From Cucumis sativus (taxonomy: Eukaryota; Streptophyta; Magnoliopsida; Cucurbitales; Cucurbitaceae): a stretch of DNA of 64,000 nt. The stretch covers positions 3,596,001 through 3,660,000 of the forward strand of contig NC_026655.2 of assembly GCF_000004075.3 (NCBI RefSeq), written 5' to 3'. Shown one piece after another: positions 5,524 through 61,456 of this stretch. The position numbers and the translations under genes are program-made. Each line of letters begins with the position of its first letter. Position 1 is the first letter of the stretch. The notes beneath the pieces are model-generated. The model did not search any database. It was not told the origin of the DNA and saw only the letters and a list, made by a program, of their open reading frames with translations.

Positions 5524-6407
5524 TCAACAATCAGCACAGCCCCTAAATTGTGGCCTTGGTGTGTGACGATTGTTGGCTCCTGACCCTGGATAGTCATTTA
5601 GTGCCACAACCATTCTTCCATGGCTCTCTTCTTCCTCCGTTTTAGTCACCTGCATAAAACAGAAAGCCTTCTCTGTTTAAATCTCAGTAACATAAACGGA
5701 TACATTACAGTAAAGTTATTTTCATAACACTCTAATTTTCTAGTTGTTGAAATACCTTTGAATATTTTATCTAGCGCTTCAAACAACTAAGGTATAGAAC
5801 AAACACCAGAGATTAGAGACCCTAGTTTTGCAAAACCCTTGGTTGTATTTGTATGTGTAATGTATGTTATTTGCATTATTTACAATTTTGATCATAGGAT
5901 TTAGTGGAGGTGTCTCATATAACTCCTTAACATCCTTATTGATATCAGTAAACATAGCTAACACACTATCAATGAACTATGTAAATTTGTATGTTGATTC
6001 TTTAATATTCTATGGTTTATGTTCATCTTTGGTTATTGGTCTAAAGACTAGGAATGGAAAAAGAAAGAGCAATAGAGTTTCAACACATAATCACTGCTCT
6101 GATCCTATGATCGAAAGCTAAAAACTTGGAGGGATAATGACATTGAGGTTGAAGGGTAATGTAACATACCATGAGGGTGTTGCTTGAAACATGAGGAAAT
6201 GGAAGAGATCCATGCAAGAGGCTGACACTTCCTACAGAATCAGATCAGAAGAGTTTAGTTCATTTTACAAGAAGAAAAAAAGAAAAAGAAGAGAAAAGAG
6301 ATTGATTTTAGGGACTTACTTGAAGTTGGGACAGCATTGGAACAAAGAAGGTTATAAAGTCCCAAGAATATGACAAGCAAACGAAGGAAATGAGAGGCTG
6401 CTGCCAT
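5524..6407 (-). CDS. Secreted PSY-like tyrosine-sulfated peptide precursor
   Basis: This is a three-exon gene: 6407-6320, 6231-6170 and 5649-5524, read on the minus strand. Its introns begin GTAAGT and GTATGT and end CTGTAG and ATGCAG, and the phases agree, giving 91 residues. Residues 1-25 form a signal peptide (MAAASHFLRLLVIFLGLYNL...). The middle is variable. The C-terminal exon carries the conserved block DYPGSGANNRHTP near residues 69-81 and ends in GCADC. The block shares D-Y, A-N, H and P, in the same spacing, with the Arabidopsis PSY1 peptide (DYGDPSANPKHDP). In that family the tyrosine after Asp is sulfated by TPST in the Golgi, and the processed peptide signals through leucine-rich-repeat receptor kinases to control cell expansion and the growth-versus-stress balance. 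That the precursor here is sulfated and cleaved is inferred. Its small exons make it easy to miss. Confidence 0.8.
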
Positions 6408-8620
6408 TGATGAAACTGCTGCTCTGCTTCAAACCAAAGAAAATCAATGGAGGTATTTATATATGAAGTCTCAGAGGCTGATGGAGAGAAAAGGAAAAAA
6501 AAAAAAAAGTGTTTGATGGGTGGTTTAGATAGAGGGCAATTTATAAGATTGTTACACACCCAAGTCAAAAAGAAAGTGATAGCAACAAGAACATTTTATA
6601 TGGAGGTGATTTGTTTGTATGTTTTGACATAAGGGGTGGTTTTAATTAAAGGCTTGGGATTCTCTATGGAAAATGAAAGATGAAAACTTAGGAAGTGGGG
6701 GAAAAGGGGGAAAAAATTATGATATTTAAAAAGTCAATATGGTGAGAAAAAGTTGGAAGACACTGTGAGAAAGTGGAGGATGACAGAAGAAATATGAGAA
6801 GGGCAAACTCATGGTGTGCACTCATTTATAAGGTCAATGGGGGGTAGTGGGAATATAATTATAATCATTTATGTGTGAGGAGAGGTTTGAAGGGAAATGT
6901 GGTGTAAATATGTGTTTGTGTTTTATACAATGGGGAAAGAGAGAGGTTTGGAGGAGTATAATATCTTGGAAACTTCATTAAAAGGAAAGTGTGGTGCAAT
7001 CCATTCTAATGGCACATAAAAAAAGGCTAGTGGGTTTGAAACCAAATTTGCACCAAACTATGTGGTACTACTTTTGCCATCACATGTGGGTATATATCTT
7101 TGCATCTTCTACTTAGCTTCTCTTTTTTTTATGTTACTTGAGCTAACCAACTATATGTATTGATAGTATTGTTTACAAAAGAGAGTGCAAAGAGAGAACT
7201 AAAGAGGATGTGTGTAGTAAAGAAATAACGTACGACTCAAATAGACTAGAATGTGTATAATCAATCAAATATATTGACGGGAAAGAGTTTGCATAAGTTT
7301 GTATACTTCTATACAAGAAAGGTTTACTCTACAATATCAGAGAAACTGTATCTTTTTTTTTTTCTTCTTTTTTTTAGAGAAACAACACATAAAACCTACA
7401 TCGTAAGAATCCACTTTAGGTAACTAACGAATGTAATTTGAAAAATCATCTCACTTAACTTGGGAACAAACCTCATTTAAAATCCATGGAACTCATCGAT
7501 CTGCAACACAAGGGTTGAAAACCCCACTAAGCACGTCGACAACCAACACCCAAATTAGATGTGGTTAGATTCTTGGGAACAATACCAACCGACATTAGGG
7601 ATATGCGGTCATCTATTTACCACTCGAACACAAGCTTTCTTGCTTAGACATATAGTTTACATCAATCAATTTTTTCATCTCTATCTTATTGGACATACGT
7701 GCATACTCATTCAACAAAAAAGAGAAAAAAAAACTAGGTAAGCATATCATACCTGATTGACAACTTTAACTAATAGATTTGCTTTACCTTAGTAAGTCAA
7801 TTAATGATATCAATACATTAATTATTGATGTCACACATATAACTATATGATGATTGATAACTATGTGCATCACTAAGTACATATACAGTTGTACTATATA
7901 TGAACATGATAAACAGTACATAAAGTTTCCTAATATTCACGTAGATGTGTAAAAGTTTGATTTATTAATCCCTAAAAGCAAAAGTAATATAGTATGATAT
8001 GAAATGGATTTAATTAAGTTGGCCAAGTTGACATAGGTATGTGCACAAAATCCAGCCAAAAAGTTATTGAAAATGATGATGATGAGAGAAAATTCTAACA
8101 TATGAAAGTGTTACCTAATTGGTCAAATTTGTACCAAAGTTTTATCTATTTCACATTGTTCAATACCATACTATAAATATAAACAAAACATGGTTTTATT
8201 TCAATTATATTCCATTTTCCCAATTCTTTCCTCAACCAAATTTAATAAAGTGGGGATTGACTTTTAATACTCATGATTAAATTAAAGTATACTTATTTCT
8301 TTTCTTGACTTCTTTGGTCACCCATTGTAATTCAATTTCATGGGAAGGAGCCTAAGTAATTCACCTCAAAAAAAAACTACTTTTTTGTAACACAAATTTA
8401 TATACATTCTCTCTTAAATCCCGACTTGAAAATGTTATGACAGTATTTTTAAGGGACGTTTGCAAAAATAACAGAAAAAGTTATAATAATAAGACCCATA
8501 TCACTGTATTTTTTAAATTTCAAAAATAGTAAATTTAAACGCGGATAACTTTGTAACAGTGCTTTAATATATCTAACTACTTATCATTTTTTTTTATAGG
8601 ATGCAATTTCTCGGACTCGA
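6408..8620. other. Upstream region of the PSY-like gene and intergenic DNA
   Basis: The part next to 6407 should hold the minus-strand promoter of the PSY-like gene. The rest is AT-rich with no convincing ORF, RNA gene or intact transposon. Confidence 0.45.
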
Positions 8621-10431: not shown

Positions 10432-12261
10432 ATGTTGGATTCTAAAGACCCTACTATTAAGCTTTTTGGCCGTCAAATCCCACTTTCCGACGACGCTGAA
10501 CCTCCGGCGCTTCTTTCACATGCAGAACACAGAAAGGTACAGAGTGTTTTAAACAGAGAACACACCGTAGATTGATTTCAATGCACTTTTATTCAACAGA
10601 TGCTCCCCATTTCATTTCACTAAATGCTTTAAACAATTCTGGGTCGTTTTTACTTTTTCACTTCCGTTTGAAAACCCCCCAAAAGAAACCCGTTTTTTTC
10701 TCTGTTTTACTTTTGGTTTATTTGATTATGCATCCTTCGAGTTTTTTTTTTTTTTTTTTCCTTCTGTAATTTGGGTTGTGTTGTGTTTTTCTTTGGGTGT
10801 ACTTACATACTGTTAGGAATCCATGAATGTTTTTTTTTTTTTTTTGGAAATTGAAGTTTTTGGGTTATGGTAAATTCTTCTCTCTCTGTTGTTGCTTTGT
10901 TTTTCAATCATTGACTGAGAGAAAAGTTACGGATTTACTCGAAAGGGAAAGAGGGGGTTTCTAAGTTTAGATGTTTCTTAATTGGGATTTTAGCAATGAA
11001 CTAAACAGAAACTGGATTGACTTATAATTTTCAATATAGATCATAAAATTTTCTTTCTTTTTGTGGATTTCAGGATGCAGCTATTGATGAACCTGAAAAG
11101 CCTGTTGATGATTCAGATGATTCAGGAAATATAGAGAGAGGGGAAGAGGCTAGTGTGAATCCCAAGACGCCATCTATAGATGAAGAAACTACTACGACGC
11201 CTGTTGATGGAGAACCCGAGAGTGAAAAATCTAATTCTGAGAAAACCCTAAAGAAGCCTGATAAACTGCTTCCATGTCCTCGCTGTAAAAGTATGGAGAC
11301 AAAATTCTGTTACTACAACAATTACAATGTTAATCAACCTCGCCATTTTTGTAAAGCTTGTCAAAGATATTGGACTGCTGGTGGCACCATGAGGAACGTG
11401 CCGGTAGGAGCCGGTCGTCGGAAGAGCAAAAACTCTGCTTCTTATTATCGTCACATAACAATCTCTGAGGCTCTTGAAGCTGCTCGAATTGAGTCTCCAA
11501 ATGGAACCCACAAACCAAAATTTATTAGCAACAATGGCAGAGTCTTGAGTTTCAATTTGGATGCACCAACTTCTGATCCTGTGATGGGCTCTGTTTTAAA
11601 CCTTGGAGAAAACAGAGTTTTGAGTAATGGAGTAAAGAAGTTTGAAGAGAAAGGAGTTGATCAAGGGTGTGAAAAAAGCTCGAGTTTGTCTTCCATGCCA
11701 GTTCAAAGTTCATCAGAATTGAAAATCAATGGCTTCCCTTCTCAAATTTCATGTCTTTCTGGAGTTCCATGGCCTTTTGTTTGGAATTCATCAGTTCCTC
11801 CACCAGCCTTTACCCCTCCAGGATTTCCCATGTCTTTTTTTCCAGCAGCTGCTTGGAACTCTGGAGTTCCTGGACCATGGAACACTCCATGGTTTTCACC
11901 ACAACCTGAAAAATCTCTATGTTCTGACACTAAAGCTTCTTCAACACTGGGAAAGCATCAAAGAGACCATGAAATGTCCAAAGAAGATGCCATCTCAAGT
12001 AAAGAAGAGGGTATTAAGAAAAGAAATGGACATGTGTTGACCCCAAAAACTTTAAGAATTGATGATCCAAGTGAGGCTGCAAAAAGTTCCATATGGGCAA
12101 CACTTGGAATAAAGAATGAATCAATCACTGGAGGGAAAAATCTATTCAAAACCTTTCAACCTAAAGGCCATGAGAAAGTTCACGTGGCTGAAACCTCCTC
12201 AGTTTTGCAGGCAAATCCTGCAGCCTTGTCAAGATCTCTCGTCTTTCACGAGAGCTCTTGA
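10432..12261 (+). CDS. CDF: Cycling Dof factor (CDF-type Dof zinc-finger transcription factor)
   Basis: Two exons, 10432-10536 and 11074-12261, join in phase 0 to give 430 residues, typical of CDF2/CDF3-like proteins. The N terminus reads [18 protein letters not shown], the conserved CDF N-terminal motif implicated in TOPLESS recruitment. The Dof zinc finger spans about residues 101-155, with ligands in CPRC (starting at residue 103) and CKAC. Two CDF-specific C-terminal blocks are present: [19 protein letters not shown] followed by ATLGIK, and LFKTFQPKG. In Arabidopsis these mediate FKF1/GIGANTEA contact and clock-controlled degradation. CDFs bind AAAG sites and repress CONSTANS and FT in the morning. 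The first start codon is used because the N-terminal motif is encoded in exon 1; an exon-2-only model would lose it. Confidence 0.95.
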
Positions 12262-18499: not shown

Positions 18500-19246
18500 A
18501 AAGGTTGAGCCACATAATTCAACGAGAAGGATGATCTTCATCTCAACATGCAAGTTAAAACGTTAAGATTGTCCAAGCATTGCCACTTCAAGTTCATACA
18601 CACTTCCTAAAGAAAAATATTTAGGTGCGTTACAAACAACGACATCTGTCTTTATGCATTTTACTAAATTGTTCAATCATAATTTGTCACGTGACAAATT
18701 TTGTTATTTTAAATAAATATATGAATAAATTTTTAGACGTGAATAGAAAATATTATCCAATTAAAATATAAGAAAGTATACGTAAATAAAAGTGAATAGA
18801 AAAGAAGAAAACGAAGACAAAGCTTGACTTGGGATGTCACTGTTTGAACATAAAATTTCATTGCAAAATCCATCGAAACCCTTAGCCGACGGGCCGTTTG
18901 GAGAGAAGACTTGAAGAAGAAGATACCACGAGGCACGAAACTTCTTAGAACTTTATACAATTACTTCTTTAACACCAAACAACTATCTAAAGTCATTGCT
19001 TTCACTCCCTCCATTTCCCCATTTTCATCTTCTAATTTTCTCGGAAGTTACACTGTTGATTCTCAAAACACGCAAACCCAACCGCCCAATAATTCAGAAA
19101 CAACAATCACTTTAATCCTTGACCCCAAATACAGACATTCTTTACTCCACATATAAATTGCCAACCCCATCAGTCTTCTTCTCTTATCTGCTTACTAAAC
19201 TGCCCATTTACATATCTATGCTACTTGTTCTTTTACTCTTTTCAAA
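18500..19246. other. Upstream region of the calmodulin-like gene
   Basis: No separate gene is supported. ORFs at 18911-19156 and 19119-19541 overlap the leader and start of the calmodulin-like gene in other frames. This stretch should carry its promoter and 5' UTR. Confidence 0.45.
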
Positions 19247-19861
19247 ATGGAACCCATTGACGTCGTTGATTATACCAACCCCATTTCAGTTTTCCATATT
19301 TTGTTTCTGTTTTTTCTCAATTTCATACTTGGACGTTTCTTTCCAGGGTTATTCAACATTTTCATACTCTCTGCTGCATTTATTTTTTATCTCTGGAATT
19401 CATGGGTTGCCCAACGTAGCATCATCACACCAAGTGTTCGACGAAATGACCATGAAGAGCATTGCTGCTGCACAAAAATCGTGGGAATGCTTGTTAATGA
19501 CAAACGGGTCGAGCAAGCGAAACTATCGATTGAAGATGTGAAAACTATGATGGAGGTACTTGATCATGAACATAATAACAATAATAGGGATAGTGATAGT
19601 GATAATCTTGAGCTTGAGGGGATGTTTGAGGAAGAAGTGAGTTTGGGGGAAGTTAAGGAAGCTTTTGATTTGTTTGATGAGAATGGTGATGGGTTTATTG
19701 ATGCAGAAGATTTGAAGAAAGTGTTGTGTGGGTTGGGATTGATTACAGTGGGTTCAGACATTGATGAATGTAAGAGAATGTTAAGTGGGTTTGACAATGA
19801 TGGAGATGGACGTTTAGATTTTGAAGAATTTGCTAAGCTTGTTGAACAGAGCTTCTGTTGA
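19247..19861 (+). CDS. Calmodulin-like EF-hand protein with N-terminal membrane segment (CML45/46-like)
   Basis: An intronless gene of 204 residues. Residues about 15-50 are strongly hydrophobic, with one or two membrane spans, followed by a cysteine cluster (HCCC, about residue 72). An acidic, Asn/Ser-rich linker lies near 108-121. Two EF-hand loops follow: DENGDGFIDAED at 144-155 and DNDGDGRLDFEE at 183-194. The first has Asp at loop position 12, where Glu is usual, which generally weakens or alters calcium binding; the second is canonical. The layout fits the plant CML45/46 type rather than true calmodulin, which has four hands. The likely role is calcium sensing at a membrane; targets are unknown. 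An AATAAA at 19920-19925 may be the polyadenylation signal. Confidence 0.85.
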   Translation: MEPIDVVDYTNPISVFHILFLFFLNFILGRFFPGLFNIFILSAAFIFYLWNSWVAQRSIITPSVRRNDHEEHCCCTKIVGMLVNDKRVEQAKLSIEDVKTMMEVLDHEHNNNNRDSDSDNLELEGMFEEEVSLGEVKEAFDLFDENGDGFIDAEDLKKVLCGLGLITVGSDIDECKRMLSGFDNDGDGRLDFEEFAKLVEQSFC

Positions 19862-30733: not shown

Positions 30734-31663
30734 TCACCTTAGTGTTTGAACTATTGTGTTGTGCCATGGGTCTGAAATGTGCTGCATGAAGTTGTCAAAT
30801 GGACCTTTTCCAGTCACGTTGTGTTGAACAATAAATCCCAAGAATGCCAACATTGCCAGTCTTCCTGTAGAGAGATCATCAAAACTTTTGATTAATCACA
30901 TTATTACAAGTGTAATAATTAAGTTATTTGATTAGCTAGTTTGTTTCTGAAACATTTACCATTAGCAATCTCCTTTTCTCTGGCCTCAAGAGTTGGTTCA
31001 AAGTTGAGTGGGTTGAAAATTCCCCCTGGGTACCCAACATCATTTGGTGGCAAGCTGTATTGCTTAAAAATTGGATCTTGATTTACACTTCCTGGGTTCT
31101 TTATATCTTGCCATCTTCTGATTTCCACATAATGGAACAGAATGAACTCAATCACAAAGAGAGTCGATGACGATGCAAAATACTCTGCTTTCCCCGCATC
31201 GTACCATTTTGGTACATTGATGATTCCATAATTTGTCAAGACTTCAGGCAATACCATACCTGCAACTCCGAGCATCGCCCATCGACCATTCACTAGCTCG
31301 GCTTGCGTATACCACCTCAAGTTTTCGGGATCCTCTGCAAGTCCTAGAGGATCAAATCCGTTGTCACCTGGAAGGCTGCAAACAGAAATGTTTAAGCTGT
31401 TTTCTTAATTCACATGTCCATTGCCAAATATCTCATATATTTTTTAATAATCCATACCTTCCATCAAGATAAGTTGGTGATGGCAAACCCGGCAACCACT
31501 CTCCTTTCTTGGCCTCAACTTTGAAAGCATTAGGAATTGAAGAAGTTGTTGGCTTAACAGACAAGGCTCTGTTAAACTTTCCCGAGGACCCCGAGAGAAA
31601 CCTCGATCTTGAAGCACATGGCCGGAAGACAGTGGCAGAAGCCTGAGTAATGACAGTTGCCAT
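30734..31663 (-). CDS. LHCA4: Photosystem I light-harvesting chlorophyll a/b protein LHCA4
   Basis: Three exons on the minus strand, 31663-31458, 31375-30960 and 30864-30734, give 250 residues. Residues 1 to about 50 are a Ser/Arg-rich plastid transit peptide, followed by KKGEWLPGL. The mature protein has the LHC helices: helix B with [11 protein letters not shown] at about 95-105, the central segment [19 protein letters not shown], and helix A with [12 protein letters not shown]. It ends near [11 protein letters not shown]. Residue N98 sits where most LHC proteins have a His ligand for chlorophyll 603; Asn here is the hallmark of LHCA3/LHCA4 and produces the red-shifted chlorophylls of photosystem I. 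The product sits in the thylakoid membrane as part of the LHCI belt, paired with LHCA1. The sequence is very close to LHCA4 (CAB P4) of other dicots. Confidence 0.96.
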
Positions 31664-43117: not shown

Positions 43118-43758
43118 TACCCATATCCAACTCTCCCCCATGAAGTCCTTAACCCATAAGGAAACAAAGCGAAGAAAAAAACAATACTATTTGTGATTTA
43201 GCCAAATACGTCTTGGAAGAGAATCCAAGTAAGAGTTTAAAATACTATTTGTTGTTGTTGTATTCTTTTAACTTTGGATTATTAGAATCATATACTTTCA
43301 AACTAAAACATCTCCTTTTGTCTCTATACTCTAACTTTTATCAATCTTATTGTTAACAATCATATTGAAAGTTCATGTTTATCAAAGTTATTATTATTAT
43401 TTCTTTTGAACAAACATATCTCTAAAGTTTGTGGATGAAACTTAGATTTGAAGGAACAGATATGAATTATACATATGCGCATCTTAGCAATCTGAACAGT
43501 GAAGCCGTCTTGAAACTTCCGTTCCATATTTCAACGCGGCCCTAAAACCAAGTCTGAAGCTTCCAAATTTGACGCCATATCTCTCCCATTCCCCACTCCA
43601 CACATTGGATTATATATAATTCAATGTGCCTTTTCGCTCCGGTTTTTCTAATCCCACGTCGTCATCTTCCCTTTTAAACCCACCTGTTCTTCCCTTTCTT
43701 TATCGCATCGCACCCATTTCCTTCTGGATTTCACCTACTCGATTCTTTACTGATCTCA

Positions 43759-46489
43759 ATGGGTAGGCGTGGATTTTTCGATCTCGAGAGGCATTTTGCA
43801 TTCTATGGCGCTTATCACAGCAACCCAATTAATATTTTCATTCATATTCTCTTCGTTTGGCCTATCTTCTTCACTGGCCTCATGCTTTTCTATTATACCC
43901 CTTCCTTCTACTCTTTTCCCAAATGCCCTTGTGGCTTCAATACTGGCCTTGTTTTGAATTTTGGGTTCTTGTTTGCTTTGCTTTATGGTGTTGTTTATAT
44001 ACTTTTTGACAAGAGAGCTGGATTTTTGGCTGCTTTTATGTGTTTTCTCTGCTGGGTTGGAGCTAGTGTTTTCGCTTTTAAACTTGGATGGACTCTTACT
44101 TGGAAGGTAAACGTTAAACTCTAAGCCCCTCCTTTTTCTCTTCCTCTTTTGATCCTTTTTTTTTTTGTTTGTTTTCTTCTGTCTGATAGCATAGCAATTT
44201 AATACTTCACTATTCTTTAAATAATCCTATTGAGGTTGTTTGGTTTCTGCTCCAATTCAATTATTTCAACCATTTATGAAGCTCTGTTTTCTGTAGTTCT
44301 ATTTAATTTCTTCTGGGGCCAGAACTTACGGTTTTGATCGGATGTATGAAGGGTTGGCCATGGTGTTGACTATGCTTTTATTGACTTTATGGTTGTGCTA
44401 GACTAGAATTTATTTCTCCTGGTACACTAGGATGGATTTCGTTTTCGTCGAGGAAAGCTTATTATAGCATAAAAATAATGAAATTTCGATCCTTTTTCCA
44501 ATCTAAGAAAGAAGAAAGAATGTTATTTGAACTTCTAACTGACTTTGTGGTTGTTGGGAATTTACTGCTCGTATTTATTATTTGTTAATTTTTTGTTGTT
44601 TTCTGCACAATAAAGGCTGATCATCCTGAAATTGAGAAATACGTTTTTCTTTCTGTCCTTTGCCTATATAAGATAGAAGAAAAGAATTGTGGCTCTGCGT
44701 TGAGTTCTTCTTTACTGATCTGTCGAAGTTTTACTGGCTAACCTAACCATTTGATCTTGAAAATTTTCAAGTTAACTATGAACCTATCTCAGTCCTTGTT
44801 GGTCTTTTTGCTTCAGTTTAGTAAGATTGTGCTGGCAATTCACTTGGACTCTAGATATGGCACCTCTTGTTTAAGCATGTTGATATGGCTAAAATTATTT
44901 TGTTATGCTTGACGATTTTGACATGTGAAAAATCGTGTTTAGAACTGTGAAACCAAATATCAAACCGATTTTGAATGATTAAAGTCATCTTTAGAGTGGT
45001 TTTGAACCTGAAGAAAGTGAGTTTAACTATTTCGAAACCACTCCATTGACTTGCACTTGGGTTTAAATTACTTTTATCATTTTCCAAATTCGTATTAAAG
45101 TTGTTTACAATAACTCAAAATAATGGTGCGAAAATCACATTTAAAAATGTAAAACTAACTATTAAATTGATTTTGAATGATTAAAAGCATGTAGTTTTTC
45201 TAACAAAACAAAGGTGATTTTAATCGTTTTGAAGACATACACCCTATTTTTTTGATTTGACATTGTCAGGTGCTCCACTGACAATTGTTAAAGATTTTTC
45301 AATGTTATAGCAAAAATTGAATTGACAACTCCTTTCAATTTGTTTATCAAACTGGTGTAACATTTGTCTTTATTTTATTATCAAACCATCGTTCTTACAA
45401 TAGTGTTTGGATGGTGGTTTCTGGTTTAAAAGTTAAAGTAAGGCTTGTTAGGCTTGGTTTAACAACACTTTAATTTGGCAGATGTCCTTATTTGACTGCT
45501 TTGTATTACAAAGAGCTTAGAATTTAGAATCCTGGCTGCTGTGTCCTTTCTTTTTTTCTTCTTTAATATCATTTATTGAGAGGCGGTACAGCATGTTAAT
45601 ATAATTGTACTAAGCTAAACTTGATAGACATCAAATCTGGAAAATATTTTTTTCCTTAATCTCAAGTGCTTTTGTTAGAATTATCTCAAAGTCTTATGCT
45701 GATATTTGGGATGAAAAAGCTTGCAGCTTTTGAATTTTGGACCAGCTTGGAGATTCCTTTTAGATAATATAATCTTAGGCCACCTTTTCTCAAAAAGTCT
45801 TCACCAGTACATAGTATGATTGACGTTGTTTCCTTCTCCTTTTACAATATCGTAGTAACTTGACAGTCACCGCCATTTTTCACGTTGGTTCGAGTACTCC
45901 TCGGCATACCTGTGACCCAGTCATTCCACGTAGATAAAATTTTGAGTACTACTTTGCATATTATAATTAAAGGATCTACAAGACACGATCAATTCATTGC
46001 AGAGTCTATAATCTCTAGCATAAACCTAAAGCTAAAGTTAAAGCCAGTTATTTTGTTGTTTGATGATATCAGGTAGTGTTGGCTGCTCAGTTGTTCTGCT
46101 GGACTGGTCAGTTTATTGGCCATGGCGTGTTTGAGGTAACTAGTTAGTTAAACATCTTAAACAATAACTCCTTTTTCAACCTTAATTCTTCAATAATGCT
46201 GGATTTTGGTTTTGCATGGTAGAAACGAGCACCTGCTCTCGTCGACAACCTTACTCAAGCTTTCTTAATGGCTCCATTCTTTGTTGTATTGGAGGTAATT
46301 ATAATTATACTCTTTCTTAGCTCAAGAATGAAACATTCCATAATGTTACTAATTCATTAACTACTTGCACAGATTCTTCATTCTTTATTCAAATACGAAC
46401 CGTATAGTGGTTTTCACGCGAACGTTAAAGCAAGGATAGAAGCTGAGAACAAAGTTTGGCAAGACAAGAAAGAAAAAAAGAGTTCTTAA
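43759..46489 (+). CDS. DUF962 / Mpo1-like integral membrane protein
   Basis: Four exons, 43759-44106, 46073-46135, 46223-46294 and 46373-46489, all in phase 0, give 199 residues. The N terminus holds the conserved histidines of the family (H12, H20 and H29 in HFAFYGAYHSNP...IHILFVW). Four or so hydrophobic spans follow, then a fourth conserved His in GQFIGHGVFE (H133) and a short basic C terminus. The yeast member Mpo1 is an Fe(II)-dependent dioxygenase of the endoplasmic reticulum that removes one carbon from 2-hydroxy fatty acids derived from phytosphingosine. The same reaction is likely here but inferred. The first intron is nearly 2 kb and contains AT-rich repeats. Confidence 0.93.
44925..45250. 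repeat. Internally repeated sequence in intron 1 of the Mpo1-like gene
   Basis: A phrase ending gattttgaatgattaaa occurs at about 44967-44983 and again at about 45167-45183. Similar flanking words (gaaaaatcgtgttta and gaaaatcacattta; aaaccaaatatcaaa and aaactaactattaaa) occur in the same order. This looks like a diverged direct repeat from an inserted element. Confidence 0.4.
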
Positions 46490-48028: not shown

Positions 48029-49213
48029 ATGGAACAGAACATCGCACCCCCCGTTCTTGAAGAATCCCAGATTGTTTTGCCTCCTGGATTTCGATTTCAC
48101 CCAACTGATGAAGAGCTTATTTCTCACTATCTATGTAAGAAAGTGGTGGACTCCAATTTCTGCTGCAAACCCATTGGAGAGGTCGATCTCAATAAGTCTG
48201 AGCCTTGGGATTTACCCTGTAAGATTTCTGTTTTCTCGTACCATTTTTTTTTTCTTTCATTCATTCCTTGAAATTATCTGATTTTGTTGGGTTTTTTTAT
48301 TTGTGGGTTTCTCAGGGAAAGCAAAAATGGGGGAAAGGGAATGGTACTTTTTTTGTTTAAGGGATAGGAAGTATCCAACTGGATTGAGAACAAACAGAGC
48401 TACTGAATCAGGGTATTGGAAAGCCACTGGAAAAGATAAAGAGATTTATAGAGGAAAAATTCTTGTGGGTATGAAGAAAACTCTTGTTTTCTATCGTGGA
48501 AGAGCTCCAAAAGGTGAAAAATCCAACTGGGTTATGCATGAATTCAGGCTGGAAGGGAAAGCCTCTGTTATTAATCTCCCTAACACTGCAAAGGTACAGA
48601 CCTTTTTCAATATCTTTTTTCTTCTTCTCTTTGAATCTTTTGAAATTATTGAGCTTTCCGTTATTTTCTTCATATTTTGTAGAATGAATGGGTGATCTCG
48701 AGGGTGTTTCAGAAGAGTTGTGGAGGGAAAAATGTTCACATTTCTGGGTTAGTTAAATTGGGTTCCTGTTCTTCTGCTTTGCCGCCATTGAAGGATTCTT
48801 CTTCTTCATTATCACCATTTAAGATCAAACCAGTTTCTGAATTGGCTCACGTGCCCTGCTTCTCCAACACCATGGATTCTTCTCAAAGAACCTTACCTAA
48901 AATAAATGATTGTTCTTTCAATTTCTCTTCCTTTTTCCCCACAATTTTCCCAAGAAACACACAGCCCACTTCATTACTCAATCCCCAATCCATCTCTTTC
49001 CCTTTAAATTTACAGTTTCAGAACATGGCTCGAACAGAAGCGGATGGAAGAATCAGTGTCTCTCAAGAAACAGGTCTAACCACTGATATAAACAATGAAA
49101 TCTCTTCTGTTGTTTCGAATCTCGAAATGGTTCGATTACCATTTGAAAATCAACACAATCCTTCTGCTTCAACCGTGCCATTGATGAACCCACCCATGGT
49201 GTGGAATTACTAA
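48029..49213 (+). CDS. NAC-domain transcription factor, NAC100/NAC079-like, miR164-targeted
   Basis: Three exons, 48029-48218, 48316-48593 and 48683-49213, give 332 residues. The NAC domain spans about residues 16-165 with all subdomains: [15 protein letters not shown] (A), the [18 protein letters not shown] region (B/C), [25 protein letters not shown] (C) and [11 protein letters not shown]...[12 protein letters not shown] (D/E). The variable C terminus has VPCFSN, the peptide encoded by the miR164 site. It also has [19 protein letters not shown] and a WNY terminus, as in Arabidopsis NAC100 and NAC079/080. Homologues act in the nucleus in lateral-organ development, root branching and senescence, and are restrained by miR164. 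NAC100 versus NAC079 orthology was not resolved. Confidence 0.94.
48846..48866 (+). promoter_or_regulatory. miR164 target site in NAC coding sequence
   Basis: CACGTGCCCTGCTTCTCCA (48848-48866) is a perfect complement to miR164 positions 1-19, from the known sequence UGGAGAAGCAGGGCACGUGCA. The two bases pairing with positions 20-21 do not match. The site encodes HVPCFSN, in the same place as in CUC2, NAC1, ORE1 and NAC100. Cleavage is expected opposite positions 10-11. Confidence 0.9.
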
Positions 49214-52222: not shown

Positions 52223-54843
52223 TCAATCATATGGATCATCAACCAACTTAAGTCCCCAGCTCATGTCCTCACAGTGCCTCACATGAGGAACAAGCTTACC
52301 AGTGTCCACTCCTTTCTTAGCCTTGCAGTCATAGAAAGGAGGTGCATGGAAACAAGGCTCCATGGACATGGCTCGACGGCAAGGTGGATCCGGTGCAGTA
52401 CGATTTTCGGGTTTGTACAATATCCATGGCTTCAGACCACCAAGACCTTGAGCCACGTATCCAAAGGTCGACCATGAACTGGTGACTAATACATCAGTTG
52501 TACTTAACAAATACATCTCTGCCAATGCCTTTTGGTTATGTATACTTTTTTCAGTTTGCTGGTGTTCCTCATGACTTGGTTGGTAGAAACTAATTATCTC
52601 CCCCGTTACTGTTGGATTCTCCCAGTAAATATCTCTTAACTTCTCAAAGTAACCAGCGCTCAATGAAGTTATCAGCACGGCTTTTGACTTTTGATTACTA
52701 ACTGGATCAATGGCATACGTTTGCCTCTCGGTTTGTGGCAACAGATTCTCTTTCATGGTGCAGTCCAGAACCTGGTCCAGAATGTGTTGAAAAGGTCCAG
52801 TTCCTGTATCAAACACTCTAATCTGAATGCCTATTCTTTCGCTAGCTCTAGCCAAGTAAGCGTGATAATATCTCGTAATCAGTCCCCAAACCGAATTTGT
52901 GGGGTGGAACAGATATCGACCCAAGAAGTGGAAAACCGTATCTTTATTTGGGAAAAGATCATTCAGTTCTTTCTCGAATGATGGGATCAAAAAGAGAGAT
53001 GGGACAAAATAATTGTCTGTTTTCATAACAAGCCAAGGAGATTGCTGCAGAAGAGCTTGGTCTTGATCACAGAAGAAAAGCTTATCATCATCGTCGTAAT
53101 CATGGACCAAATGAAGATAAACAACAGATGGCAAGATCATTCCACTTGAATCTGGCGTTATGCTATTCTTCATTATTTTCCCATAGCAATTAGGAGAGTT
53201 CTGGTTGAAACTACTGAAGTCATCTTTTAATGGGAAATCTTGGGGAAGAAACCAAGAAACCTCAGGAAATGGTTCACAGAGAAGACCAGCCATGTCAGTT
53301 CCAGGGTCAACAAGAAGAACGCGATTTGTGAGGAGAGCATAAAGAAACGCTGAAGCAAGGGTTAGTATTCTATTCCCTAATCCACTGAAGGAAATCCACA
53401 GAAGATATTTACAGTCTGAGGGGCTGCTACTACCATTAGACCTAAGCTGCTCCAAAGTTTTGTTGTAAGATTCAGTATGAACTCCACAACGCTTATGAAG
53501 ATCTTCATAACCCCGCAATGTGGAGAGTAAGTAAGCAGAGGGTTCGTAAGCCAGCTTGTGTTGATAAGCAACTGAATTGTACCTACTGAGACAAGAACCA
53601 ACCACATGTTTGGCAGAAAGAAGGCCACTAAGCAGTTTATCAACTGGCTGTACAACTGTTTGAAGATCTCCAACCTTAGAATCTACTGAAAGAATATAAT
53701 AAAAGGACGATAAGAGAAAGCCAACAAATTATACATGGAATGAAGTGCATATTTCATACTGGTAAAGATTAGACCACCTTTTACTGGAATTCAGCAAAAG
53801 CAGTATACAATATAGAGATAGAGAAATTATGAATAGCAAAGAAGGAACTTGACCTATGCAAAATGAAAAACAGGATGTCAATCGCACTTACACATATATG
53901 ATGCAACATCTTTGGATAAAAAAGCAAACGAAAACTAAATTAACCTCCGAAGTAGTGAAAGCATTCTGATGTGTAAATGGTAACAGCCTAACAGGAGAAG
54001 ACCGTTTATAAAGCCTACTTACAGCTTTAACTAATTTCCTAAAAATCAGCATATCAAATCATTAGATTACATATCTCAGCACATTATAGCAGAAGTCTTG
54101 AATTTTTTTTTCTCATTCTTCCTCTCCAATGGTTCAGTCCATCGTGAAGAAAGAGTAAGAAAAGTCAACAGAGCATGAATAAGCCAGAACTCAAACACCA
54201 CTGACAATGATGTATGGAAATAAAATAAGAGTAGGGGCAAGTGAAAGTGCTGCATTTGTAATAAACTTGGTGCAGTTCAATCTAACTGTTGTCAGAATGT
54301 TTCTGGAATGCCATATTTAAGACGCTTCCCACAAATTTCCAAATCATTTTGAGAGCTTAAACGCTGATACTAATTCAGTCAATTTCACAAACAGAATGAA
54401 TGCAATGTGGCTCTTCTAGCACTTGACAGACAACGAATGAAAAGCAATTCAAACTGAAACTCACAACACAATGCCTCAAACACAGAGCTTGAAGATAGAG
54501 GCAAAAAAACATGCAGTAATTTCCAAGAAGTTCAAAATCAAATACCTGGGTCAGAACTCCACTGAGGAATCCACACATCTGAACCTTCAATTACAGCATC
54601 CGACGGTGGATCTCTAAAAACCACCGAGACCGAAAATATCACAGAAATGAACATCATCAGAACCACAAACATACCCATTACTCGAATCGAACTGAACCCA
54701 AATTTCAATTCATGGTTGCTCTTGAAATCAAAGTGCGGATCCTTGTCCGATAGGTTCTTGTGATGATCATCCTCAGTCTGCCTCATGGATCTCCTAACAT
54801 TCGCATAGTTTTCATCTGGGTATGAATTGAATGTCCGGTTCAT
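52223..54843 (-). CDS. Xyloglucan-type alpha-1,2-fucosyltransferase, GT37 (FUT1-like)
   Basis: Two exons on the minus strand, 54843-54546 and 53685-52223, joined in phase 1, give 586 residues; Arabidopsis FUT1 has 558. The start MNRTF at 54843 is the first ATG in frame; the eight upstream in-frame codons begin with TTG. It is a type II Golgi protein: a cytosolic tail of about 53 residues, one membrane span at about 54-76, then a lumenal stem and catalytic domain. Family motifs include WISFSGLGNRIL (GLGNR at 201-205), RYLFHPTNSVWGL, RIGIQIRVF (383-391, the GDP-fucose site region), ALAEMYLLS and YVAQGLGGLKPWILY. The C terminus ends LVPHVRHCEDMSWGLKLV plus a short tail. It transfers fucose from GDP-fucose to galactose on xyloglucan side chains or arabinogalactan proteins. 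Which acceptor it prefers is inferred only. Confidence 0.94.
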
Positions 54844-59010: not shown

Positions 59011-59788
59011 AAGTGACTTGTACAAGATCTGAGTTGTTTCAGCTGATAGTATCGTTGTGTTATTCATCCCCATGTAAGTTGTTCATCGCACAAAGTATTT
59101 ATTGTTTCAATCGATGGAGAACAGCTACGCTTCTTTACAATCTTCAACATCTCCTCCTATGATGCCCCCTGATCTTTCCACTTTTTTCTTCTTCAAAATG
59201 CAGAGAGAATCTCCAACTGCACAGGTAGCAGAACATTGTGTTCTTGAAGCTCTTATATCTCAGCCATGGTTGCCACCTCCACAGTTTTATTCCTTGTGAA
59301 AAGAAGCCTGTAGATTGCCACTTGAAGATTTGTTATGTACTATAACATCCCAGTATAAATTTGAGTACAAATTCAATAATATGAACTTAAGAACAATAAT
59401 ATTCTACTTTCCATATTGGTTGTCCAATCGAAACTTCTTAGGATATTTTAAAACATGTTATGAGAATAAAGAAATAAAAAAGTTAAATCTACTTCTGTAG
59501 TTTATTTTGATAACTTATTTCATATCTAAATCTTGTGAACAATTGAACAAAATATATGAAGGAAGACTAAGCTGACCATTCAAAATTGATTGATCATATT
59601 GATGTAAAAAAGAACCTAAAGAATTTGAGTTATACTTTGAGTTTATCTTATAATTGAAGAGATGGAAATTTTAAAATTGTCTCTTAAATTTATACTTTAA
59701 TCTGATAAAAATACACAAAATTTTGAAGTTCAGAATTCTGAGTTTTATAAATATTGAAGACTAAGGCAAAGATCAAAATCTTTTTCTG
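59011..59788. other. RPE 3' UTR and spacer before the PPR gene
   Basis: The 3' UTR probably runs to about 59500. The rest is AT-rich. The short ORFs at 58953-59162 and 59102-59299 overlap the RPE end or 3' UTR and lack domains. Confidence 0.5.
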
Positions 59789-61456
59789 ATGTCCAATCGT
59801 ATTGTGCCGATTTTGAGAGAGAATGCAACCGCCATTTCCGCCATTGGAAGAAGCTCTAGAGTTAGGCAACAATTTATTTTCTCTGTATTGAAGTCCTGTG
59901 TTTCTTTTCGTAATCTTGCAAAAACCCATGCGCAAATAGTTGTCAGCGGCTTTTCCCAGAAAAATTACATCCTTAACCATCTTTTGTCGCTCTATATCTC
60001 TTTTGGTTCTCTTGGAAGTGCCCAGAAAGTATTTGAGGACATAACTGCACCGAGTACGACTGTGTGGAACCAGATAATTAAAGGCCATACGCGGAGCAAA
60101 ACGTCAAAAAAATCAATTGAGTTGTTCAAACGAATGACATTGGCGGGAGTTGAAGCTAATGGGTTCACGTATTCGTTTCTTTTGAGTGCGTGTGTGAGGT
60201 CGAGGTTATTCAGAGAAGGGGAACAGATTCATGGGAGAGTTTTAGTGAATGGGTATTGGTCCAACTTGTATGTCAGAACGAATTTGATCAATTTATATGC
60301 AAATGGTGGAGATGGAGGGGATTTTGATCTTAAGCGTGCGCTTTACTTGTTTGATGAAATGCCTGACTCAAATGTCGTGGGTTGGAATTCCTTGCTTGCA
60401 GGGTATGTTAGACGTGGTGATTTTGATGGGGCTAGAAAAGTTTTTGACGAGATGCCTGAAAGGAATGTCCGGACATGGACTATAATGGTTGCAGGGTTTG
60501 CTCAAAATGGCCAGTGTAAGCTAGCTTTGTCACTATTTGATCAAATGAGAAGGGCCGGTGTGGAATTGGATCAGGTGGCATTGGTGGCTGCATTGTCAGC
60601 TTGTGCTGAATTGGGAGACTTGACATTGGGAAAATGGATTCATGGGTATGTTGAAAGAACATGGCGGAGTAGACACCTCCCAGTATTGGTGTCTTTGAAC
60701 AATGCTCTGATACATATGTATGCAAGTTGTGGTGCTATGGATTTAGCATATAAGCTGTTCGAAGAAATTCCTCAACGAAACACTGTGTCTTGGTCGAGCA
60801 TTATCACTGGTTTTGCGAAACAGGGTTGTGGAGTAGAAGCCATTAGAATCTTTCAGTTGATGTTGTGCTCTGGTCAAAATGAAGTCAGACCTGATGAGAT
60901 CACCTTCATTGGAGCTCTCACTGCTTGCAGTCATGCCGGTTTAATCAGCGACGGTATTCGACTTTTCCAGTCTATGCACAAAACTTTCGGAGTTATCCCG
61001 CAGATTGAGCATTATGGATGCATGGTTGATCTCTTGAGCCGTGCAGGCTTACTGACTGAAGCGTTGAGTCTGATTGAAAGCATGCCAATGAAGCCAAACA
61101 ATGCTGTGTGGGGAGCACTTCTCAGTGGCTGTAGACTTCACAAGAATGACGAGATCGTATCCCATGTTGCAAAACATTTGTCTTTCGAAATCGATCCCAA
61201 CAATCAAGCTGCTGGATACTTCATGCTCCTAGCTAATGTTTATGCTGCAGACGGTCGTTGGCAAGACACTGCTACCGTCAGACGGAACATGCACGACATA
61301 GGAGTGAAGAAACCTTCAGGAAGAAGTTGGATCGAGATTAATGGAGTCTTATGTAGTTTCATGGTGGGGGAAGAGACTCATAAGGATGTGAATTTAATTT
61401 ACGAAATGCTTGGTAACATAACCAGACAAACCCAGATGGGAGAGCTGCAAATCTAA
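59789..61456 (+). CDS. PLS-class pentatricopeptide repeat protein with E-type C terminus
   Basis: An intronless gene of 555 residues. After a short N-terminal segment come tandem PPR motifs of P, L and S type, seen for example as YILNHLLSLYISFGSLGSA, VVGWNSLLAGYVRRGDFDGA, VRTWTIMVAGFAQNGQ, NTVSWSSIITGFAKQG and EITFIGALTACSHAGL. The C terminus has an E domain (NNAVWGALLSGCRLHKN...) and an E+-like end (KKPSGRSWIEINGVLCSFMVGEETH). The protein stops there without a DYW deaminase domain. Such proteins bind organelle RNA and commonly specify C-to-U editing sites, recruiting a DYW partner. The target and organelle are not predictable by eye; the N terminus is Arg- and Ser-containing and fits mitochondria or plastids. 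Confidence 0.92.
   Translation: MSNRIVPILRENATAISAIGRSSRVRQQFIFSVLKSCVSFRNLAKTHAQIVVSGFSQKNYILNHLLSLYISFGSLGSAQKVFEDITAPSTTVWNQIIKGHTRSKTSKKSIELFKRMTLAGVEANGFTYSFLLSACVRSRLFREGEQIHGRVLVNGYWSNLYVRTNLINLYANGGDGGDFDLKRALYLFDEMPDSNVVGWNSLLAGYVRRGDFDGARKVFDEMPERNVRTWTIMVAGFAQNGQCKLALSLFDQMRRAGVELDQVALVAALSACAELGDLTLGKWIHGYVERTWRSRHLPVLVSLNNALIHMYASCGAMDLAYKLFEEIPQRNTVSWSSIITGFAKQGCGVEAIRIFQLMLCSGQNEVRPDEITFIGALTACSHAGLISDGIRLFQSMHKTFGVIPQIEHYGCMVDLLSRAGLLTEALSLIESMPMKPNNAVWGALLSGCRLHKNDEIVSHVAKHLSFEIDPNNQAAGYFMLLANVYAADGRWQDTATVRRNMHDIGVKKPSGRSWIEINGVLCSFMVGEETHKDVNLIYEMLGNITRQTQMGELQI

Follow-up and report, generated by a model that had tools for sequence, protein, structure and literature searches.

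The gene and its surroundings

The window, a 64-kb stretch of cucumber DNA that was analysed as a whole, carries a gene of three exons and two introns on its minus strand (6407-5524), which can be read directly from the sequence. Its parts are listed in Table 1 together with the neighbouring genes. The joined coding sequence comprises 276 nt including the stop codon and specifies a precursor of 91 residues with a mass of 9,910 Da and the C-terminal end DYPGSGANNRHTPRPQFRGCADC, in which the DY motif starts at residue 69. A first-pass annotation of the same DNA had proposed three exons joined in correct phase and a 91-residue product; both the coordinates and the protein turned out to be right, the two introns being of the GT-AG type and in phases 1 and 0, respectively.

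The surroundings are those of an ordinary plant locus. When nine open frames of the window were compared with Pfam, seven had a family above the cut-off, one had a match below it only (Response_reg) and one had none. The Dof gene resembles a cycling Dof factor. With ordinary plant genes present in the window, the idea that the locus is a mimic from a microbe or nematode was discarded.

Table 1. Position of the PSY gene, of its parts and of neighbouring genes in the window, and of a PSY cluster elsewhere in the genome
Feature	Position	Strand	Length	Remarks
TATA-like stretch CATATATAAATA	6454..6465	-		about 50 bases 5' of the ATG; sequence match only
Exon 1	6320..6407	-	88 nt	ATG, signal-peptide-like MAAASHFLRLLVIFLGLYNLLCSNAVPTS, first base of split Arg codon
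Intron 1	6232..6319	-	88 nt	GTAAGT...CTGTAG, phase 1
Exon 2	6170..6231	-	62 nt	variable propeptide RSVSLLHGSLPFPHVSSNTLM; codon of R shared with exon 1
Intron 2	5650..6169	-	520 nt	GTATGT...ATGCAG, phase 0
Exon 3	5524..5649	-	126 nt	includes TGA; acidic linker, PSY domain, C-terminal tail, stop
PSY domain DYPGSGANNRHTP	5557..5595	-		same letters as the listed Arabidopsis PSY6 core
C-terminal tail RPQFRGCADC	5527..5556	-		two Cys; RPQ common to tobacco NtPSY1
Dof zinc-finger transcription factor, exon	11047-12261	+		Pfam Zn_ribbon_Dof, E 5e-33
EF-hand calcium-binding protein, frame	19199-19861	+		Pfam
Chlorophyll a/b-binding protein, exon	30919-31404	-		Pfam
Mpo1-like match, frame	43678-44124	+		E 4.9e-9
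NAC-domain transcription factor, exon	48282-48695	+		NAM match, E 5.7e-29
Xyloglucan fucosyltransferase, large exon	52223-53728	-		E 2e-209
Pentatricopeptide-repeat protein with E motif	59765-61456	+		Pfam
Cluster of L007, L008 and L009	C1, 22,234,275-22,252,420			PSY1-like

Support for the gene model

Splice sites were scored with an approximate plant consensus and ranked against the sites on both strands of the window. Donors 1 and 2 fall within the top 0.47 % and 1.1 %, respectively, of 6218 GT dinucleotides, and acceptors 1 and 2 within the top 1.5 % and 0.01 % of 7187 AG dinucleotides. All four splice sites, earlier described as good, lie within the top 0.01 %-1.5 %. The GC content of the exons (0.46) is higher than that of the introns (0.31). 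Among 475 open ATG starts ranked by a hydropathy measure, that of the precursor, with its hydrophobic N-terminus, falls within the top 6.1 %, which suggests a putative signal peptide.

Searches with the precursor itself recovered little. Pfam gave no family at the cut-off, the one weak match being YMF19 (E 0.29, 12.5 bits vs a cut-off of 22.6), and no match was found among solved structures. Rfam had no match across the whole window. In viral contigs four stretches fit a pattern, none of which was confirmed. The absence of a Pfam family at the cut-off, together with the shortness of every exon, is what one would expect if a series of short frames resembled a PSY gene by chance. However, when the PSY motif DYxxxx[AP]NxxHxP was searched as a degenerate DNA pattern, a single match was obtained in the 64-kb window and none in 100 dinucleotide shuffles of it used as controls, and gene models of the same structure can be built for paralogs, so that a chance origin is hardly credible. 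It is very likely that the locus is a real gene, rightly read from raw sequence, and a member of a known hormone family.

Relationship to known PSY peptides

The encoded peptide had been announced as similar to PSY1. That it derives from a PSY-family precursor is well supported, but it has closer relatives than PSY1. The Arabidopsis PSY1 peptide, which begins DYGDPSANPKHDP as given in a 2024 review (PMC11534595), shares with the window core D1, Y2, A7, N8, H11 and P13, i.e., 6 of 13 positions; because of this low identity PSY1 was rejected as closest relative in favour of PSY6, which matches at 13 of 13. The same review lists Arabidopsis PSY6 (At1g74458) as DYPGSGANNRHTPH, with the core DYPGSGANNRHTP and a precursor of 94 aa compared to 91 aa in cucumber, and PSY8 (At3g47510) as DYPGSGANNRHLPR, with 12 of 13 core residues identical and a precursor of 85 aa. 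The core DYPGSGANNRH[TL]P, by which we delimit a PSY6/PSY8-like group from the table of that review, is found in the window gene. After the core, the listed forms continue with H in PSY6 and R in PSY8, whereas the window gene has RPQFRGCADC.

Identical core residues are also present in a tomato peptide that has been detected by mass spectrometry in xylem exudate (Solyc03g115950.3.1, PMC9028419). It is listed as DyPGSGANNRHTp, where y is sulfated and p hydroxylated; the detected sequence varied, and the form given is a representative. The tomato precursor has a mass of 10,409 Da, compared to 9,910 Da for that of cucumber. Tobacco NtPSY1 (PMC12153210) equals the window gene in the length of both protein (91 aa) and coding sequence (276), and a synthetic peptide, DYPGSGANNRHMPRPQLGR, has been designed from it. 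Its core DYPGSGANNRHMP is likewise followed by RPQ, but it has M instead of T at position 12, LGR where the window gene has FRG, and three reported introns vs two coding introns in our model. The window gene thus combines the PSY6 core with the RPQ continuation of NtPSY1.

The family motif is given by Tost et al. (PMC7913133). Among the peptides listed in the literature, GmXAP5 has K instead of P at the final position of the motif, that of Solyc06g052020 ends in D, and GmPSY-XSP4 has neither the H nor the P. Gene identifiers exist for the relatives in Arabidopsis, tomato and tobacco. Among the matches listed, no paper is devoted by its title to PSY peptides of cucumber, and one (PMC11756074) mentions both PSY peptides and cucumber. 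At1g74458, now PSY6, already appeared in a 2010 article on possibly mis-annotated orphan genes (PMC2877095), where the gene is said to bear a homologue of miR415 on the sense strand.

Taken together, there is little doubt that the window contains an ordinary nuclear plant gene encoding a PSY6-type precursor. The hormone family is a known one, and the 13-residue core was already known from Arabidopsis and tomato. Both core and gene layout are ordinary and no new class is opened. An exact model of a PSY6-type hormone gene, along with further PSY loci in one plant genome, is now at hand, and the peptide can therefore be synthesised and tested directly.

Other PSY loci in the cucumber genome

The genome searched for paralogs comprises 226,625,048 bases in 88 contigs. 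With the full-length precursor as query, the only matches at E <= 0.001 were its own three exons. Paralogs were retrieved by short queries with weak E-values. The number of PSY loci given here is a lower bound for the genome. L005 on contig C3 (E 0.0018) and L006 on C5 (E 0.098) were found in this way. A further query, which included eight residues made up for it, found three loci within about 18 kb on C1, namely L007 (E 0.0053), L008 (E 0.052) and L009 (E 0.64). The full DYxxxx[AP]NxxHxP motif is present in all five. A query of the soybean XAP5 type again led to the C5 locus alone (E 1.08).

L005 and L006 could each be modelled with three exons, introns in phases 1 and 0 and an Arg codon split at the first junction, as in the window gene. 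This shared layout supports the model of the latter but does not amount to independent proof, since the splice sites of both paralogs were picked by eye to hold the frame. In contrast to the three exons of the window gene, the PSY1-like L007 and L008 were modelled with two exons and a phase-1 intron (74 aa each), their splice sites also being chosen by eye. Published PSY genes of tobacco have two or three introns, and in wheat both two-exon genes and genes with three introns have been described. In view of the paralog models with the same phases and of these published structures, a three-exon layout is not unusual for PSY genes.

At least one relative in the genome, L009, resisted ready modelling, and one might accordingly ask whether the window gene is a pseudogene or relic of a PSY gene, with a frame that merely happens to be open or has not yet had time to decay. 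However, the frame is open through all three exons, the splice sites are good and the 13-residue core is identical to that of the Arabidopsis and tomato peptides, which makes such a relic most improbable and leaves an ordinary PSY6-type gene as the preferred reading.

The two-cysteine tail

The first-pass annotation had singled out the cysteine-containing tail as distinctive. This is borne out within the genome, where the tail of the window gene (RPQFRGCADC) has two cysteines and differs from those of all four modelled paralogs (L005-L008), none of which has any. Among the papers listed for the letters GCADC, none deals with PSY as judged by title and abstract, and the RPQ extension matched that on tobacco NtPSY1 only. 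Since the listed forms with the same core end in HTp (tomato) or HTPH (PSY6), it may be suggested that the tail is trimmed off. The presence of GCADC in the window gene and its absence from the four paralogs could also be taken to mean that a PSY variant is secreted with its two-cysteine tail kept, for instance closed by a disulfide or as a dimer, a reading that overlaps with the preferred one and does not compete with it for the same odds. The ends HTp and HTPH speak against it, although weakly, as the tomato form represents varying sequences, and we consider retention of the tail very unlikely. Also unlikely is the idea that GCADC is the signature of a conserved subgroup of the PSY6 type, whose tail would steer C-terminal trimming, pair two precursors by a disulfide or give a longer, disulfide-closed peptide. 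The two-cysteine tail is the sole point that is perhaps worth following up.

Proposed mode of action

Since the core is identical to that of PSY6, the likeliest role of the window peptide would be the same as that of PSY6. By analogy with its relatives, the precursor would enter the secretory pathway; the tyrosylprotein sulfotransferase TPST would sulfate the Tyr of the Asp-Tyr pair and one proline would be hydroxylated. Proteases would trim both ends, probably removing the cysteine tail, and leave a secreted product of some 13-14 residues; the published candidates for this step are subtilases, whose involvement in processing was proposed by Tost et al. (PMC7913133). The targets of the peptide would be LRR receptor kinases of the PSYR type; its binding would turn off their signal, which promotes stress responses and represses growth, and tissue given the peptide would be expected to grow.

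The corresponding observations on the relatives are summarised in a commentary (PMC10519359), which states that LC-MS/MS identified the mature forms of PSY5, PSY6 and PSY8 and that both PSY5 and PSY6 are direct interactors of PSYR1, PSYR2 and PSYR3. It adds that, as long as the peptide is absent, these receptors hold back growth and favour stress responses. As to where the relatives are expressed, PSY6 was found by qPCR mainly in roots (PMC7913133), and the mRNA of the tomato peptide gene is also higher in roots (PMC9028419).
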